Origin: Rhizobium sp. WSM4643
Lineage (GTDB): Bacteria; Pseudomonadota; Alphaproteobacteria; Rhizobiales; Rhizobiaceae
Assembly (NCBI RefSeq): GCF_025152745.1
Contig: NZ_CP104040.1
Coordinates: 2,728,001 to 2,792,000 of the forward strand
Length of the DNA: 64,000 bases
Direction: 5' to 3'
In this document: positions 3,925 through 52,716 of the stretch, in pieces
Numbering within the stretch: position 1 is the first letter of the stretch
How the letters are laid out: every line of letters begins with the position of its first letter
Program-made: the position numbers and the translations under genes
The notes under the pieces: generated by a model
The model's database searches: none
The model's input: only the letters and a program-made list of their open reading frames with translations
What the model was told of the DNA's origin: nothing

Positions 3925-4134
3925 ATGGCCACCGCAACCCTCTCTACAAAATTCCAGATCTCCATTCCCAAGGAAGTGCGCGAACAACAACACTGGTCGG
4001 CGGGACAGGAATTCGTGTTCATTCCCAAAGGCAAAGGCGTATTGCTGATGCCGGTCCCGACGCTTGCCGATCTTCGCGGCATCGCCGAAGGTGCAGACAA
4101 GACAAACTACCGCGACCGGAACGACCGTTTCTGA
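3925..4134 (+). CDS. AbrB/MazE-type antitoxin of a PIN-toxin module
   Basis: A 69-residue protein beginning MATATLSTKFQISIPKEVRE, the swapped-hairpin AbrB DNA-binding fold (TKFQ.SIPKEVR). The C-terminal residues 45-69 would wrap the toxin. The start is supported by GAGGAAAGG at 3911-3919. The stop overlaps the toxin start as TGATG, indicating translational coupling. By family knowledge it represses its own operon and neutralises the PIN toxin. Confidence 0.88.
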   Translation: MATATLSTKFQISIPKEVREQQHWSAGQEFVFIPKGKGVLLMPVPTLADLRGIAEGADKTNYRDRNDRF

Positions 4135-4511
4135 TGCGCGTGATCGACAGCTCCGCATGGATAGAATGGCTGACGAAAAGTGCTGCTGGAATCCAGCTGC
4201 AGGCCGAAATCCCGGAACGCGATCAATGCATCGTTCCGACGATCGTGCAGCTCGAGCTTTCCAAATGGCTGGCACGCGAAAAGGACGAGGAAGCCGTCGA
4301 CAGCTTCATCGCTTATACCGCAACATGCATGGTTGTTTCTCTCGACACGACGCTTGCTCGCCGTGCTGCCGAAATATCGGCAGCCCATAAACTCGCCACC
4401 GCCGATGCGATCATTTATGCAACCTCCGAGCGCCTCGATGCCGATATCCTGACCTGCGATGCCCATTTCAAGGATCTCGAACGCGTCATCTATATCGATA
4501 AAAAAGACTGA
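4134..4511 (+). CDS. vapC: VapC-type PIN-domain ribonuclease toxin
   Basis: A 125-residue PIN nuclease. The acidic metal-binding residues are visible: D5 in MRVIDSSAWIEW, a glutamate in VQLELSKW, and aspartates in ATADAIIYATS and LTCDAHF. Family members cleave specific RNAs when released from the antitoxin. The start codon overlaps the stop of the AbrB-type antitoxin by one base. The pairing with an AbrB antitoxin is the usual VapBC arrangement. Confidence 0.9.
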   Translation: MRVIDSSAWIEWLTKSAAGIQLQAEIPERDQCIVPTIVQLELSKWLAREKDEEAVDSFIAYTATCMVVSLDTTLARRAAEISAAHKLATADAIIYATSERLDADILTCDAHFKDLERVIYIDKKD

Positions 4512-4629
4512 TCCGCATGTGACCCAAGCCCTCGACGGCTGGGCACAACGCTTCTATCACAAACCGGGAAATGATAATCTGGCATCTGGAATGGCTGAAA
4601 ACCGGCATGTGCAGGCGGCACCGAATCCA

Positions 4630-4881
4630 ATGGCGAAAATGACGATCTCGCTTCCGGATAATCTGGCGGAATACGTCGAAAACCGTGTCGCAAGCGGCAG
4701 ATACAGCAGTGCTGACGCATTCCTGGCAGAGCTCATTCTGAAGGACCAGCTCCATCACAAGCTTGACGACGACGAACTGCGCAACATCCTGAGACAGGCT
4801 GAGGAAAGCGGCCCGAGCGATCGACGCATTCCCGACATCCTGTCGGAAACGAAGGCGAAGCTGCGTGACAATAGCCTATAG
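4630..4881 (+). CDS. ParD-like ribbon-helix-helix antitoxin
   Basis: An 83-residue protein starting MAKMTISLPDNLAEYVENRV; the short beta strand (MTISLP) followed by two helices is the ribbon-helix-helix fold of ParD/CopG antitoxins, with an acidic C-terminal toxin-binding tail. In-frame starts also exist at 4591 and 4639; the family usually begins just before MTISLP. It overlaps the following toxin gene by 17 bases, indicating a coupled pair. Confidence 0.82.
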   Translation: MAKMTISLPDNLAEYVENRVASGRYSSADAFLAELILKDQLHHKLDDDELRNILRQAEESGPSDRRIPDILSETKAKLRDNSL

Positions 4882-5200
4882 GCTGACCCGAAAGGCGGAC
4901 GCGGTGCTATCAGGCATCGACGAATATGCTTGCCTCAACTTCGGCGAGGCGCAGGCAGACGCCTATCTTCTCGACTGGGACAGGATTTTCGTGCTTCTTT
5001 CCCATGCTCCCTCCATGGGAGAAGAGTGCGACGAACTCGGCGTCGGCCTTCGCCGCCTCCTCCACATGCGCCACGTCGCCTTCTACCGGGTGACATCGGC
5101 AGGGATTGTCGTCATTGACATCATCGACGCGGACCGGCTTCCCGAAAGACATCTTCAATCCAACCAACGCCCGCGATCGGCCGAACAGCATGCCTCTTGA
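4865..5200 (+). CDS. ParE/RelE-type toxin
   Basis: A 111-residue protein with the ParE pattern: YRLTRKADAVLSGIDEY, FGEAQADAYLLDWDRIFVLL, GLRRLLHMRHVAFYRV and GIVVIDIIDADR. The start is probably the GTG at 4865, inside the antitoxin gene. ParE toxins usually poison DNA gyrase, RelE types cleave mRNA; the sequence favours ParE. The C-terminal tail after DADRLPERHL is longer than in most family members and runs into the start of the next gene. Confidence 0.82.
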   Translation: MTIAYRLTRKADAVLSGIDEYACLNFGEAQADAYLLDWDRIFVLLSHAPSMGEECDELGVGLRRLLHMRHVAFYRVTSAGIVVIDIIDADRLPERHLQSNQRPRSAEQHAS

Positions 5201-43541: not shown

Positions 43542-43928
43542 TCACCGCGAGGGATCGTTGCTGAGCTCGATCGGCCGGCCGTGCGGCGTCGCTTCTGCCG
43601 CCCGCTGCCAGCTCTGCTGCAGGGCCAGGATCGTTTCCGTATCGGCGATGCCGTTGTCGACGATGAGTTTGGAGAGTGCCGCCACCCAGCAATCAAAATA
43701 GTCGCTGCCATCTTCGGCCCGGCCAGGCTTGTGCAATTGCGCGGAAAGCACCTCAGCCCATTCGCTCCAGCTGAACAGGCCGTTTGCGTGCAGGTGCACG
43801 GTCATGGCAAAAGCTTCGGCAGCCCATGGCTCGGGAAAAACCGGCTCGCCCTCCGGCGACCTCGGCAGCCCGGGTGATTGCGTCAGCGGCGATGTCTCAT
43901 GTCGGCTCAAGATAGCTCTCCCAGGCAT
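43542..43928 (-). CDS. Nitrile hydratase accessory (activator) protein
   Basis: A 128-residue protein. EPVFPEPWAAEAFAMTVHLH and FSWSEWAEVLS are the signature of the beta-subunit-like nitrile hydratase activators that deliver cobalt to the alpha subunit by subunit exchange. It overlaps the beta-subunit gene by 32 bases and is the last gene of the operon. Confidence 0.92.
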   Translation of the reverse strand: MPGRAILSRHETSPLTQSPGLPRSPEGEPVFPEPWAAEAFAMTVHLHANGLFSWSEWAEVLSAQLHKPGRAEDGSDYFDCWVAALSKLIVDNGIADTETILALQQSWQRAAEATPHGRPIELSNDPSR

Positions 43929-44556
43929 CGATCGATACCGTCAGTGATGGATCGGCGCCCTCGCCCCAGACCTCGCCGCCGCTGAAGACCACCGTGTAAA
44001 GCCATTGCGGGTTCTCGCCCTTGCCATGGGCATTATCGTCGGGAAAGACGAAAGAGCCTTGCACCGCCTCGACCATTCCGGTCCTGGCGCGGGCATAAAG
44101 CGGCAGGCGCGTATGTGTGACCGGATTGAAATTCTTGGTCTTCACCGTCTCACCGACCACGAAGAGCGGCGCGGTCCCGACAGGACGATCGCAAGGGCCG
44201 CCTTTCGCCAGAACGCCGGGCACCATATTCGCCTTCAGCAGCCGCTTCGGAACTGCTCCTGGCTGCTGCGCATGGCCGGACAGCAACTCCTCGCGAGTCG
44301 CAAAGCCGTGCCGTTCGAGCAGCTTATCGATGCCGCGGATCCAGATCTCGTAGTAGCTGGCAGCGAGATAATCAGCCGGCGGAATATTCTCGCGCGCATG
44401 CCGGCTTTCATCGATCGTCCATGCGCCGAACGCGCCGCAGGAAAGCGTGATGCCGAGCGCCCGCTTTTCCCATTCGGCATGGAAACAGGGCTCGTCCTGT
44501 TCGGGCGCGACAGGACCAAAGCCCATCTGCCCGCCGAGATCATGCGGTCCGTTCAT
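43897..44556 (-). CDS. nthB: Nitrile hydratase beta subunit
   Basis: A 219-residue protein starting [16 protein letters not shown], the invariant N-terminus of the family, with SYYEIWIRG and a C-terminal SH3-like region ([24 protein letters not shown]). It shapes the active-site entrance together with the alpha subunit. It overlaps the alpha gene by 4 bases. Confidence 0.96.
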
Positions 44557-45188
44557 GTGGCGCTCTCCGGCCTGCTCACAACCGCCGTGCCGATCATCGC
44601 ATCGCGGCTCACCAGATCCGCAAGCGACTCCTCGTCCATTCCGTCGGTCCCTTCAGGCCGTTCGGGAATGACGAGGTAACGCAGCTCCGCCGTCGAATCC
44701 CACACGCGGATCTTCTTGTCCTCCGGCAGCGTCAGCCCAAATTCGGCCAGCACGCCACGCGGATCGATGACGGCGCGCGAGCGATAGGCCGGCGCCTTGT
44801 ACCAGACCGGCGGCAGGCCAAGCACCGACCAGGGATAACAGGAGCAGAGCGTGCAGACGACGAGATTATGGGTCTCGGCCGTGTTGAAGACGGCGCGCAT
44901 ATGCTCGCCCTGTCGGCCGGTATAACCAAGGCTGGCGATGGCCGCCGTCGCATCGCGCCTCAGCCAGTCGGCGAAATCAGGATCGCTCCAGGCTTTCGCC
45001 ACGACATGCGCGCCGTTCCTCGGCCCTACCTTTGTCTCGTAGGTCTCGACGATCGCATCGATCGCCGCAGGATCGATCAATCCCTTCTCCGTCAGCAGCG
45101 TCTCAAGCGCCTTCACGCGCGCCTGCATGTCGGAATAGTGATTGTCATGATTGTGAGTATGGTCGTCGTGGTGGTCATGGTCGTGCAA
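44553..45188 (-). CDS. nthA: Nitrile hydratase alpha subunit, cobalt type
   Basis: Hydrates nitriles to amides. The metal-claw motif VCTLCSC (C112, C115, S116, C117 in the numbering used here) has threonine after the first cysteine, the cobalt-type signature (serine in iron types). A TTG at 45188 with GGGAGGA seven bases ahead is the probable start; it gives a histidine-rich N-terminus ([20 protein letters not shown]) that could hold cobalt. The next in-frame ATG is 20 codons later and lacks a ribosome-binding site. 211 residues, normal for the family. Confidence 0.92.
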
Positions 45189-45265
45189 GGCAATGTCCTC
45201 CCGGTACGGCAGAGAGTCGGCTCTCACCCTCTCTGGCGGGTCTGAAAAGTAAGCGAGGTCCGCGG

Positions 45266-45395
45266 CTTGGTTCCCTCTTCTCCCCAGCGGGGAGAAGGTG
45301 GCCCGAAGGGTCGGATGAGGGGGCTGCACGGCACAACCATCAATATTGCCCTTCGCTTGCGCTTAGCGCATTCACGGCTTCGCCGCTCACCCCCT
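45266..45395. repeat. Left arm of the dispersed two-arm repeat, interrupted by IS110 element
   Basis: CTTGGTTCCCTCTTCTCC, CAGCGGGGAGAAGG, then GGATGAGGGGG and finally CCGCTCACCCCCT reproduce the element at 791-956. The copy stops at 45395 where the insertion sequence begins and resumes at 46568. Confidence 0.85.
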
Positions 45396-45424
45396 TGCAT
45401 GTTCAAACTGCATCCGTTGATGAT

Positions 45425-45590
45425 GGGTGCGACCCCTGGGGGATGGCCATCCCCCAGGGGTCGGACGGGCGGGACCGTAACCCCCTTGGCGTGAACCGGG
45501 GATGAGCCTGGTCCGCCCGTCCTTCGCGTTTGTCCTGAACAGATAGTGGGGAGCAGGTCCCGTATGCAAGGCAAGGTATCGTCCGAACGC
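45425..45590 (+). ncRNA. Candidate IS110 bridge RNA
   Basis: Three stem-loops in order. (1) A 34-base perfect palindrome at 45430-45463. (2) A target loop: stem GGACGGGCGGGACC (45463-45476) with GGTCCGCCCGTCC (45510-45522); its 5' guide ACCCCCT (45480-45486) equals the left flank 45389-45395, and its 3' guide GATGAG (45501-45506) is complementary to the right flank CTCATC at 46566-46571. (3) A donor loop: stem GCGTTTG (45526-45532) with CGAACGC (45584-45590); its 5' guide ACAGAT (45539-45544) equals the element's right end at 46559-46564, and its 3' guide ATGCAAG (45564-45570) is complementary to CTTGCAT at the left end 45394-45400. Ends of the RNA are estimated. Confidence 0.8.
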
Positions 45591-45596
45591 ACCGCG

Positions 45597-46550
45597 ATGG
45601 CGACAGTTTATGTCGGCATCGATGTCTGTAAAGAGTGGCTGGACATTCATCTGCATCCTCTCGGCCGCAGTTTTCGGGTGACCAACGACACGGCCGGCCT
45701 GCGCCGCCTCAAGCGGGAGCTCGATGCGCTTGACCAGATGCCGCGCTCGGCGCTGCGTATCGTCATGGAAGCGACCGGCAAGTGGCATCGCGCCGTCCAG
45801 CGCTCGCTGCATGCCGATGGCTTTTACGTGTCGGTCGTCGACCCGCTGCGCGCCCGGCTGTTTGCCAAAGCCTGCGGCTTTCTCGCCAAGACCGATCGGC
45901 TCGATGCGCGGTTTCTGGCCATCATGGGAGAAGCCCTCAAGCCCGCACAGACCCCACCGCCGGACCAAGCGCTGGAAGCCCTGCAGGAACTGGTCAATGC
46001 CCGATCTGCCGCCAATGGCGAACGCACCGCCCTGTCCAACCGGATGAAGACGGCCGTGACCGCCTTCCTGCGCAAGGAACTGACGCGCCGGCTTGCCGCG
46101 CTCGACACCCATATCGCAAGACTGGACGCCGAGATCGAGCGCAGCATCTGCGCCGATCCCGAGATGCGCCGCCGCCTCGACATCCTCATCTCCATTCCCG
46201 GCATCGGAGCCGTCACCGCCGCAAGCCTGATCGCTGGCCTTTGCGAACTTGGCGCCTGCTCCGGCAAGCAGGCCGCCATGCTGACCGGCCTTGCGCCGAT
46301 TGCCTGCGAAAGTGGCGAGCGGGCCGGACATCGCTCCATCAGGGGCGGACGCCCAGCACCCAGGAACGCCATCTACATGGCCGCCCTGTCCGCCTCCCGT
46401 CACAACCCGGACCTCGCACGCTTCGCCGCAAGGCTGAAGAAAGTCGGAAAACCCAATAAGGTCGTCCTCGTCGCCGTCATGAGAAAGCTCATCGTCCTGG
46501 CAAACACCCTCATCACCAAAAACCGCATCTGGACACCAAATCCACCTTGA
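45597..46550 (+). CDS. IS110-family DEDD transposase/recombinase
   Basis: A 317-residue enzyme. RuvC-like N-terminal acidic residues are in VYVGIDVCKEW, RIVMEATGKWHRA and LAKTDRLDARFLA; the C-terminal Transposase_20 region has ISIPGIGAVTAASLIA and ACESGERAGHRSIRGGR with the expected catalytic serine. Start 45597 places MATVYVGIDVCK at the N-terminus, as usual, and leaves the bridge RNA free; an ATG at 45564 (with AGG ahead) is an alternative that overlaps the donor guide. All catalytic residues appear intact, so the element may be active. Confidence 0.92.
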   Translation: MATVYVGIDVCKEWLDIHLHPLGRSFRVTNDTAGLRRLKRELDALDQMPRSALRIVMEATGKWHRAVQRSLHADGFYVSVVDPLRARLFAKACGFLAKTDRLDARFLAIMGEALKPAQTPPPDQALEALQELVNARSAANGERTALSNRMKTAVTAFLRKELTRRLAALDTHIARLDAEIERSICADPEMRRRLDILISIPGIGAVTAASLIAGLCELGACSGKQAAMLTGLAPIACESGERAGHRSIRGGRPAPRNAIYMAALSASRHNPDLARFAARLKKVGKPNKVVLVAVMRKLIVLANTLITKNRIWTPNPP

Positions 46551-46567
46551 CACCAAACACAGATGCT

Positions 46568-46607
46568 CATCTGCCTGCCGGCATCTTCTCCCCGCTGGGG
46601 AGAAGCG
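46568..46607. repeat. Right arm of the interrupted dispersed repeat
   Basis: CATCTGCCTGCCGGCATC and CTTCTCCCCGCTGGGGAG continue the repeat stopped at 45395. The remaining bases up to 46721 hold no gene. Confidence 0.75.
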
Positions 46608-52542: not shown

Positions 52543-52602
52543 CTATCTGTTCCGTTTGATGCTGGGATTGCGTTTGTGGCCGGAAGCCCGAATTTCGGGC
52601 AT

Positions 52603-52624
52603 AAAAAAAGGCCCCTGAGGAGCC
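52603..52624 (-). terminator. Attenuator terminator in the ilvIH leader
   Basis: On the minus strand GGCTCC and GGGGCC pair around TCA and are followed by seven Ts (52609-52603), 60 bases before ilvI. Its location after a leader peptide and before the first gene is that of a transcription attenuator. Confidence 0.8.
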
Positions 52625-52632
52625 TGTCATCT

Positions 52633-52682
52633 AGCGCATGGGTGGCTATCGCCGGATGGTTACACCATCCTGCCCATGCGCT
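52633..52682 (-). promoter_or_regulatory. Pause/antiterminator hairpin region of the ilvIH leader
   Basis: Perfect 10-base arms AGCGCATGGG and CCCATGCGCT enclose an inner perfect hairpin GGATGGT-TAC-ACCATCC. The 5' arm (minus strand) overlaps the last codons of the leader peptide, so ribosome position would change folding. Confidence 0.65.
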
Positions 52683-52716
52683 TTCCCACCACGATAAGAG
52701 CCGTTGCGATTTTCAT
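52660..52716 (-). CDS. ilvIH leader peptide (branched-chain-rich)
   Basis: An 18-codon frame encoding MKIATALIVVGKRMGRMV: six of 18 residues are Ile, Leu or Val, with Leu-Ile-Val-Val in a row at positions 7-10. It lies between the expected promoter and an intrinsic terminator ahead of ilvI, the layout of amino-acid attenuation leaders. A clear ribosome-binding site is not seen, which lowers confidence. Confidence 0.7.
   Translation of the reverse strand: MKIATALIVVGKRMGRMV

Follow-up and report, generated by a model that had tools for sequence, protein, structure and literature searches.

The element and its boundaries

The window, by which we mean the whole stretch of 64,000 nucleotides of Rhizobium sp. 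WSM4643 that was analysed, contains an insertion sequence in the intergenic region upstream of a nitrile hydratase alpha gene. The nitrile hydratase beta and alpha genes (43897-45329, minus strand) adjoin the insertion, and the Atu_C8 small RNA of Rhizobiales is found at 52593-52714 on the minus strand (121.8 bits). The main features are as follows.

45394..46565, plus strand: IS110-family element, 1172 bp counting one CT core (ten near-identical copies and empty orthologous sites)
45394..45395, plus strand: left CT core (direct reading and empty orthologous sites)
45597..46550, plus strand: IS110 transposase/recombinase of 317 aa (protein families, similarity to solved recombinases)
46566..46567, plus strand: right (second) CT core (direct reading and empty orthologous sites)

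An earlier note made from the sequence had described the locus as an IS110 element with a CT core, and this description is borne out by protein families, similarity to solved recombinases, catalytic residues and empty sites. The protein matches DEDD_Tnp_IS110 (PF01548) with 67.9 bits (cut-off 29), Transposase_20 (PF02371) with 59 bits (cut-off 21.3) and the NCBIfam IS110 transposase model NF033542 with 201 bits (cut-off 140). Two recombinases of solved structure are similar to it, that of IS621 (residues 5-303 of 317, E 5.5e-34) and that of ISCro4 (E 7.6e-31). The residues D, E, D and D and a C-terminal serine in an ESG motif align with the catalytic residues of IS621 that are named in the accessible part of PMC11208158. 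Over 12 lineage representatives, four of these five positions are conserved in 12/12 and the first D in 11/12, the exception being the A' row, in which the stretch was lost through alignment trimming. The start of the coding sequence is uncertain: three related records annotate it at the position corresponding to ATG 45564. This alternative ATG lies inside the right donor guide described below, and guide and coding sequence may therefore overlap.

The boundaries of the window's copy were examined in 31 genomes (30 relatives and the host itself). In five of these (G002, G017, G020, G055 and G058) both flanks align to DNA that lacks the insertion, where they overlap by exactly 2 bases; the sites of G017 and G058, read as DNA, are the uninterrupted CACCCCCTCATCTGCC. 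Because the empty sites join with a 2-base overlap at CT, the element boundaries are independently right, and insertion was scarless around the dinucleotide core at these five sites. The element has 201 nt to the left of ATG 45597 and 15 nt to the right of the stop codon. No terminal inverted repeats were detected between the outer 60 nt, where the longest match is 6 nt, a length reached by 226 of 500 shuffles. With its long non-coding left end, short right end and lack of terminal inverted repeats, the element belongs to the IS110 rather than the IS1111 group.

Ten copies in a repeated palindrome

The host genome carries ten copies of the element that are 99-100% identical. All are inserted at CCCC-CT-CATC inside a repeated palindrome, with outer flanks that differ between copies. 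Two features next to the window's copy belong to these palindromes.

45314..45323, minus strand: free copy of the target decamer, in the neighbouring inverted palindrome (site search)
46580..46594, plus strand: GGCATCTTCTCCCCG inside the palindrome of the insertion, target of IS110 lineages C and E in other genomes

Uninterrupted palindromes read GGCATCTTCTCCCCG. The host genome contains 92 uninterrupted CCCCCTCATC decamers (46 + 46) versus 3 for the pattern read backwards, and CCCCCTCATCCG is present in 134 of the 148 genomes of the genus. Contig 1 has 85 free sites, among which there are 26 pairs of neighbours in inverted orientation within 250 bp. At nine of the ten insertions an inverted partner decamer is still free, at 36-141 bp from the matched stretch (8 on contig 1 and 1 on contig 4); for the remaining copy (L007) no exact free inverted partner decamer was found.

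Ten copies with 99-100% identity at different places argue for recent activity of the element. The same identity, and the location of the copies in related palindromes, could also be expected if a block of palindrome plus IS had been multiplied by duplication or gene conversion, in which case the shared flanks would be no record of guided insertion. However, the outer flanks are not the same from copy to copy, and for the window's copy there are orthologous sites that are empty and joined at CT. We therefore consider block duplication very improbable, and repeated insertion at one kind of site the appropriate reading.

Four guides in the left end match the target and the element ends

The left non-coding region contains four words that correspond to the insertion site and to the ends of the element.

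45389..45395, plus strand: left target half with core, ACCCCCT (direct reading)
45480..45486, plus strand: left target guide ACCCCCT (effective part about CCCCCT, 45481-45486)
45500..45506, plus strand: right target guide GGATGAG (direct reading, site comparison, chance test)
45539..45544, plus strand: left donor guide ACAGAT (direct reading, chance test)
45564..45570, plus strand: right donor guide ATGCAAG (direct reading, chance test)
46566..46572, plus strand: right target half with core, CTCATCT (direct reading)

That all four guides match had been claimed in the earlier note, and direct reading confirms each of the pairings: ACCCCCT (45480-45486) equals the left flank (45389-45395), GATGAG (45501-45506) is the reverse complement of CTCATC (46566-46571), ACAGAT (45539-45544) equals the right end (46559-46564), and ATGCAAG (45564-45570) is the reverse complement of CTTGCAT (45394-45400). 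The remark that the ACAGAT guide halts before the core is likewise correct, the RNA reading ACAGATA where the end reads ACAGATG. A left donor word with the core inside it was tried and rejected, since requiring the core lowered the fit to 25, as compared to 26, and moved the word to another position; the core of the left donor guide is therefore probably unpaired. This is not unusual, because the left donor guide of IS621 pairs only as far as the first core base (PMC11208158, accessible part).

The significance of the four matches was assessed with pseudo-ends. The best ordered fit of the four 7-mers to the left non-coding region is 26 of 28, at 45480, 45500, 45539 and 45564. When CT positions from the rest of the window were drawn at random to give 4000 pairs, the mean score was 18.7 (sd 1.1, maximum 23), and none of the 4000 reached 26. 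The four ordered guide matches are thus beyond chance.

Relatives in six lineages carry different guides at different sites

Protein matches at E <= 1e-40 are present in 47 of the 148 genomes of the genus, host included. Sixty stretches were fetched and, together with further loci, both ends were found for 84 of 104 loci, which fall into six lineages, A-F. The 20 loci for which the motif yielded no end pair are absent from the lineage, guide-fit and handshake tables, at least three of them (L050, L051 and L053) only because they are stored on the opposite strand. The proteins of the six lineages are 30-49% identical, and the lineages carry different guides. Their sites read as follows.

Lineage A (the window's element and sisters 65-68% identical to it): mostly CCCC-CT or GCCC-CT, then CATC
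Lineage B: TCATC-CT or TCACC-CT, then GAGG; one CTCAT-CT
Lineage C: GCACC-TT and variants, or TTCCC-CT; right side CT-CTCCC
Lineage D: several sites, for example AACCG-CT-GCGCA and AAACG-CT-CTAGC
Lineage E: ACCTT-CT or ATCTT-CT, then CCCCG
Lineage F: CCCC-CT or GCCC-CT (4/6) or GCTC-CT (2/6), then CATCC

The left ends of all six lineages carry left and right guides corresponding to their own sites. Among the 54 distinct guide/site combinations, which are not independent within a lineage, 51 fit their own site with p-values of at most 0.05, mostly from 0.0003 to 0.04, when 3000 genomic CT sites served as the background; for the other three (L068, L111 and L141) the fit was not above chance. In L143 the best left match lies away from the guide position. 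When 12 representatives were compared in a target matrix, the best score was obtained at the own (or nearly the same) target, alone or shared, for all except D62. The right guide of D62 lies beyond the gap allowed in this matrix, and a wider gap gave a p-value of 0.016. C_G122 ties with the C target, the right half being common to both. Lineages with other guides sit at other, matching targets, as the earlier note's reading requires, and in these comparisons target guide and insertion site change together between relatives.

The target guides seem to discriminate better between lineages than the left donor guide. In lineages B, C, D and F the left donor guide fits its own ends at 7/7 positions, whereas in A, A' and E the own ends fit at 6/7 and ends of other lineages or sisters fit equally well or better.

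Two further sets of loci may be mentioned. The host genome also carries two copies of another IS110 element, of lineage B and 44% identical (L118 at G000:C1:2697428-2700133 and L119 at 2519105-2521810), which have other guides and are inserted at CTCATC-CT-GAGGTGC; four free CTCATCCTGAGG sites are present in the host genome. L105, a member of lineage D, has a GT core at its left junction and guides that are nearly those of its CT neighbours, with one N in the RNA.

Guide positions that fit natural insertion sites

In the A-clade, 28 loci were set aside as re-fetched or as belonging to the same record, which left 37 insertion sites, of which 5 lack a right end. The earlier note had proposed a comparison of the insertion sites of relatives with their own target guides, and over these 37 sites the guides match the flanks with few mismatches near the core. 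Mismatches to the left guide occur at position -5 in 28 sites, at -4 in 8 and at -2 in 1, with none at the core, -1 or -3. Over the 32 right ends there is a single mismatch to the right guide within CTCATC, and there are five at the seventh position, where the site has T. The window's own site is of this type, with G opposite T46572. At position -4, C guides are found at C in 20 cases and at G in 2, and G guides at C in 6 cases and at G in 9 (Fisher p 0.0014, an approximate value because the elements share ancestry).

The extents given to the guides in the earlier note can thus be upheld in part: the core words stand, a seventh nucleotide can be added to the right target guide, and the initial A of ACCCCCT probably falls away. 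This A is matched in the window's copy and in L002, and unmatched in the other eight host copies. It is probably incidental, and since it is mismatched at 28 of the 37 related sites we take the working left target guide to be about CCCCCT.

Handshake bases follow the target and the ends

In IS621, donor position 7 has as its partner the base that follows the right target guide, and target position 7 the one that follows the right donor guide (PMC11208158, accessible part). Both bases have counterparts in the element.

45507..45507, plus strand: target-loop handshake base C, complementary to donor position 7 (G46565)
45571..45571, plus strand: donor-loop handshake base G, complementary to target position 7 (C45393)

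The target-loop handshake base is complementary in 81 of 84 copies, with donor G, T and A accompanied by C, A and T, respectively; it is broken in three A-clade rows (L034, L048 and L101). The donor-loop base is complementary in 82 of the 83 copies in which it was located, with target C, T and G accompanied by G, A and C, and the remaining one is a G.T pair. In L070 the base was not located by the pattern, and the expected G was seen on reading. Complementarity is less frequent at the three positions that follow (11, 13 and 60 of 84 for the target loop; 53, 43 and 48 of 83 for the donor loop). The 84 copies include at least four places that were fetched twice (L035/L103, L059/L104, L066/L110 and L075/L138), and, as copies within a lineage are not independent and some are doubled, the weight of this result rests on three base types per position.

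These data bear on the view that targeting is due to direct recognition of the host palindrome by the recombinase, and that the words resembling guides are coincidence or by-products of conserved ends. Such recognition would agree with the presence of the palindrome's CTTCTCCCC...GGGGAGAAG in the right flank of 10/10 host copies (the arm of L007 being partly seen). It is, however, hard to reconcile with the distribution of targets among lineages: the distant lineage F (36% identical to A) shares nearly A's target and nearly A's guides, whereas the nearer lineage D (46% identical to A) has other targets and other guides. D was grouped with A at 91/91 support, which is below the tool's star, and the placement of F and E is unsure because both are long branches. 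Also against protein recognition are two A-clade elements, L180 (NZ_CP016290.1) and L181 (NZ_CP071635.1), with proteins 95% and 65% identical to that of the window. Each lies on its own Rhizobium plasmid at about 4000-5170, and the two positions correspond, both being downstream of repABC, an NYN-domain gene and a cold-shock gene. The flanks of their site, CGCCC-CT-CATCCC, are unlike the palindrome, yet the guides match at 12/14 and 13/14 positions. Lastly, the handshake bases covary. We therefore regard targeting by the protein itself as highly unlikely.

Structure of the predicted bridge RNA and a candidate junction promoter

An alignment of 18 distinct A-clade left ends, with 35 named pairs, and a motif scan gave the following features.

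45398..45403, plus strand: CATGTT, possible -10 half (weak, 3/6 consensus letters)
45431..45462, plus strand: 5' stem-loop of the predicted bridge RNA (covariation, 8 of 13 pairs changed on both sides)
45463..45522, plus strand: target-binding loop (two helices, one pair changed on both sides)
45525..45596, plus strand: donor-binding loop, closed by CGCG 45525-45528 with CGCG 45593-45596 (RNAalifold consensus)
46547..46552, plus strand: TTGACA, -35 half of the candidate circle promoter (motif scan)

The two internal loops that had been seen in the left non-coding part are supported by the aligned consensus, the donor loop being taken from RNAalifold. For the 35 named pairs, 98.4% of the cells pair and 9 pairs have changed on both sides. 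The covariation score is 0.213 versus 0.079 in shuffled alignments, and none of 500 shuffles reached this score or the both-sides count. Sliding the partner by 1-3 columns reduced pairing to 31-57%. One of the five measures was opposed: 13 further pair types were counted versus 15.1 in the shuffles, 497 of which were at least as high. The covariation of stems among relatives that could be expected from the earlier note is thus present, mainly in the 5' stem-loop. In this test there is hardly any variation in the named donor-loop helices, and RNAalifold found one inner donor-loop pair (columns 141-159) for which 6 of the 18 rows have changes on both sides. When a single sequence was folded (z -3.52), parts of the guides became paired and the donor loop did not appear as in the alignment, and we therefore relied on the alignment for the structure. 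Rfam gave no match over the element at gathering scores, and a permissive scan of 45380-45640 gave five sub-threshold matches, the best with 26.2 bits as compared to a gathering score of 47.

When the element ends are joined in a circle, TTGACA, a perfect -35 box, is separated from CATGTT by 17 nt across the junction. A box resembling TTGAC (TTGATC in the case of D62), followed by a spacer of 17 nt, is present in the representatives of A, C, D and F; no good junction promoter was found in the scan of the B and E representatives. With a start near 45410, as suggested by the promoter, and an end that would lie near 45596, the predicted RNA would be roughly 185 nt long. The RNA of IS621 is numbered to 177 in the accessible part of PMC11208158.

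A folded left end might also serve chiefly as a leader that controls translation of the transposase, rather than as a guide. The donor loop does reach ATG 45597, the start in the three related records mentioned above lies inside the right donor guide, and the ISPpu9 transposase is reported to be regulated by two small RNAs and a 5'-UTR structure (PMC8450116, accessible part). However, a leader leaves the guide-target and handshake fits unexplained, and such a role could be true in addition to that of a guide. As the chief function of the left end we judge it extremely unlikely, and the guide reading is retained.

A proposed mechanism

We are nearly certain that the locus holds a recently active IS110-family element of the IS621 type that uses bridge-RNA-guided recombination. 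The sequences themselves establish the anatomy and boundaries of the element, the fit of its guides to target and ends, the covarying stems, the complementary handshake bases and the repeated use of one kind of site. Circle formation, transcription, RNA binding, cleavage and exchange are proposed here by homology to IS621, and the left end may by the same analogy specify a functional bridge RNA. The element would excise as a circle joined at CT. This join would create the TTGACA-17-CATGTT promoter, from which the left end would be transcribed into the bridge RNA. In the donor loop, ACAGAU and AUGCAAG would pair with the circle junction ACAGATG-CT-TGCAT. The DEDD/serine recombinase would then cut after the core in both DNAs and exchange strands, with one handshake base from each loop helping strand exchange.

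A split core in lineage C and a possible shared landing pad

Seven distinct copies of lineage C (L130, L131, L133, L134, L136, L138 and L139, with L075 being L138 again) carry TT, as in the target, at their left junction, whereas their right junction has CT, as in the donor. Their left target guide, which contains CACCTT or CATCTT, codes for TT, and their right target guide, with GGGAGAG, codes for CT. Lineage C is not uniform in this respect, because other copies (L123-L126, L135 and L137) have CT at the left junction too. In IS621, the top strand is cleaved after the core and TT cores also supported recombination (PMC11208158, accessible part), and the split core of lineage C therefore fits known chemistry.

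We give an even chance to the view that changes in their guides have directed lineages A, C, E and F (32-41% identical in protein) to a single family of host palindromes, which would form a shared landing pad with A and F at its outer base and C and E in its middle. According to this view, the left target guide of the split-core elements codes for the target TT, the right target guide and the donor end code for CT, and after insertion TT remains at the left side of the element and CT at its right side. Two findings were less expected than the others: distant recombinases use nearly the same target, and lineage C has a split TT/CT core.

Comparison with known systems

As far as the accessible parts of the cited papers show, the element is closest in design to IS621 of E. 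coli (PMC11208160, PMC11208158). The two have in common a similar recombinase with DEDD and serine residues, a CT core, a left-end RNA with the order 5' stem-loop, target loop and donor loop, left guides that match the bottom strand and right guides that match the top strand, handshake bases, a junction promoter (here a candidate), and insertion into repeated extragenic palindromes (PMC11208160). They differ in target and host, and in the guides: the left target guide is about CCCC plus core here and 9 nt in IS621, the right target guide about 7 nt as compared to 4, and the right donor guide is a contiguous 7-mer, whereas its pairing in IS621 is discontiguous. The ISCro4 transposase (PDB 9t56) is a similar recombinase with a solved structure, the likeness being by protein alone. 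The IS110-type seekRNA (PMC11187229, accessible part) also derives from a non-coding region upstream of the transposase and has RNA words matching both target strands; that study concerned other elements and targets, and showed co-purification of the RNA and reprogramming, whereas the present case is made from sequence.

Insertion of IS110 elements into repeated palindromes was already known for ISRm19 and others (PMC1525189) and for IS621 (PMC11208160), again judging from the accessible parts of these papers. For ISRm19 of Sinorhizobium meliloti, likewise an IS110 element in repeated palindromes of a rhizobium and likened here by its description, 4/4 copies in such palindromes were published in 2006 (PMC1525189). 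The bridge-RNA mechanism was published in 2024, and the present element adds a well-supported further example of the IS621 type. In the literature from 2024 on, with partial coverage of journals and preprints, we found no report linking bridge RNA and insertion sequences to rhizobia.

The element and its relatives offer a natural series for testing the rules of bridge RNAs. Within a single genome one guide is found at ten sites, sister elements differ in both guide and site, distant recombinases reach nearly the same target, handshake bases track target and ends, and the right target guide is longer than that of IS621. It suggests which guide positions count in nature, namely about CCCC plus the core on the left, and CTCATC plus one position on the right.
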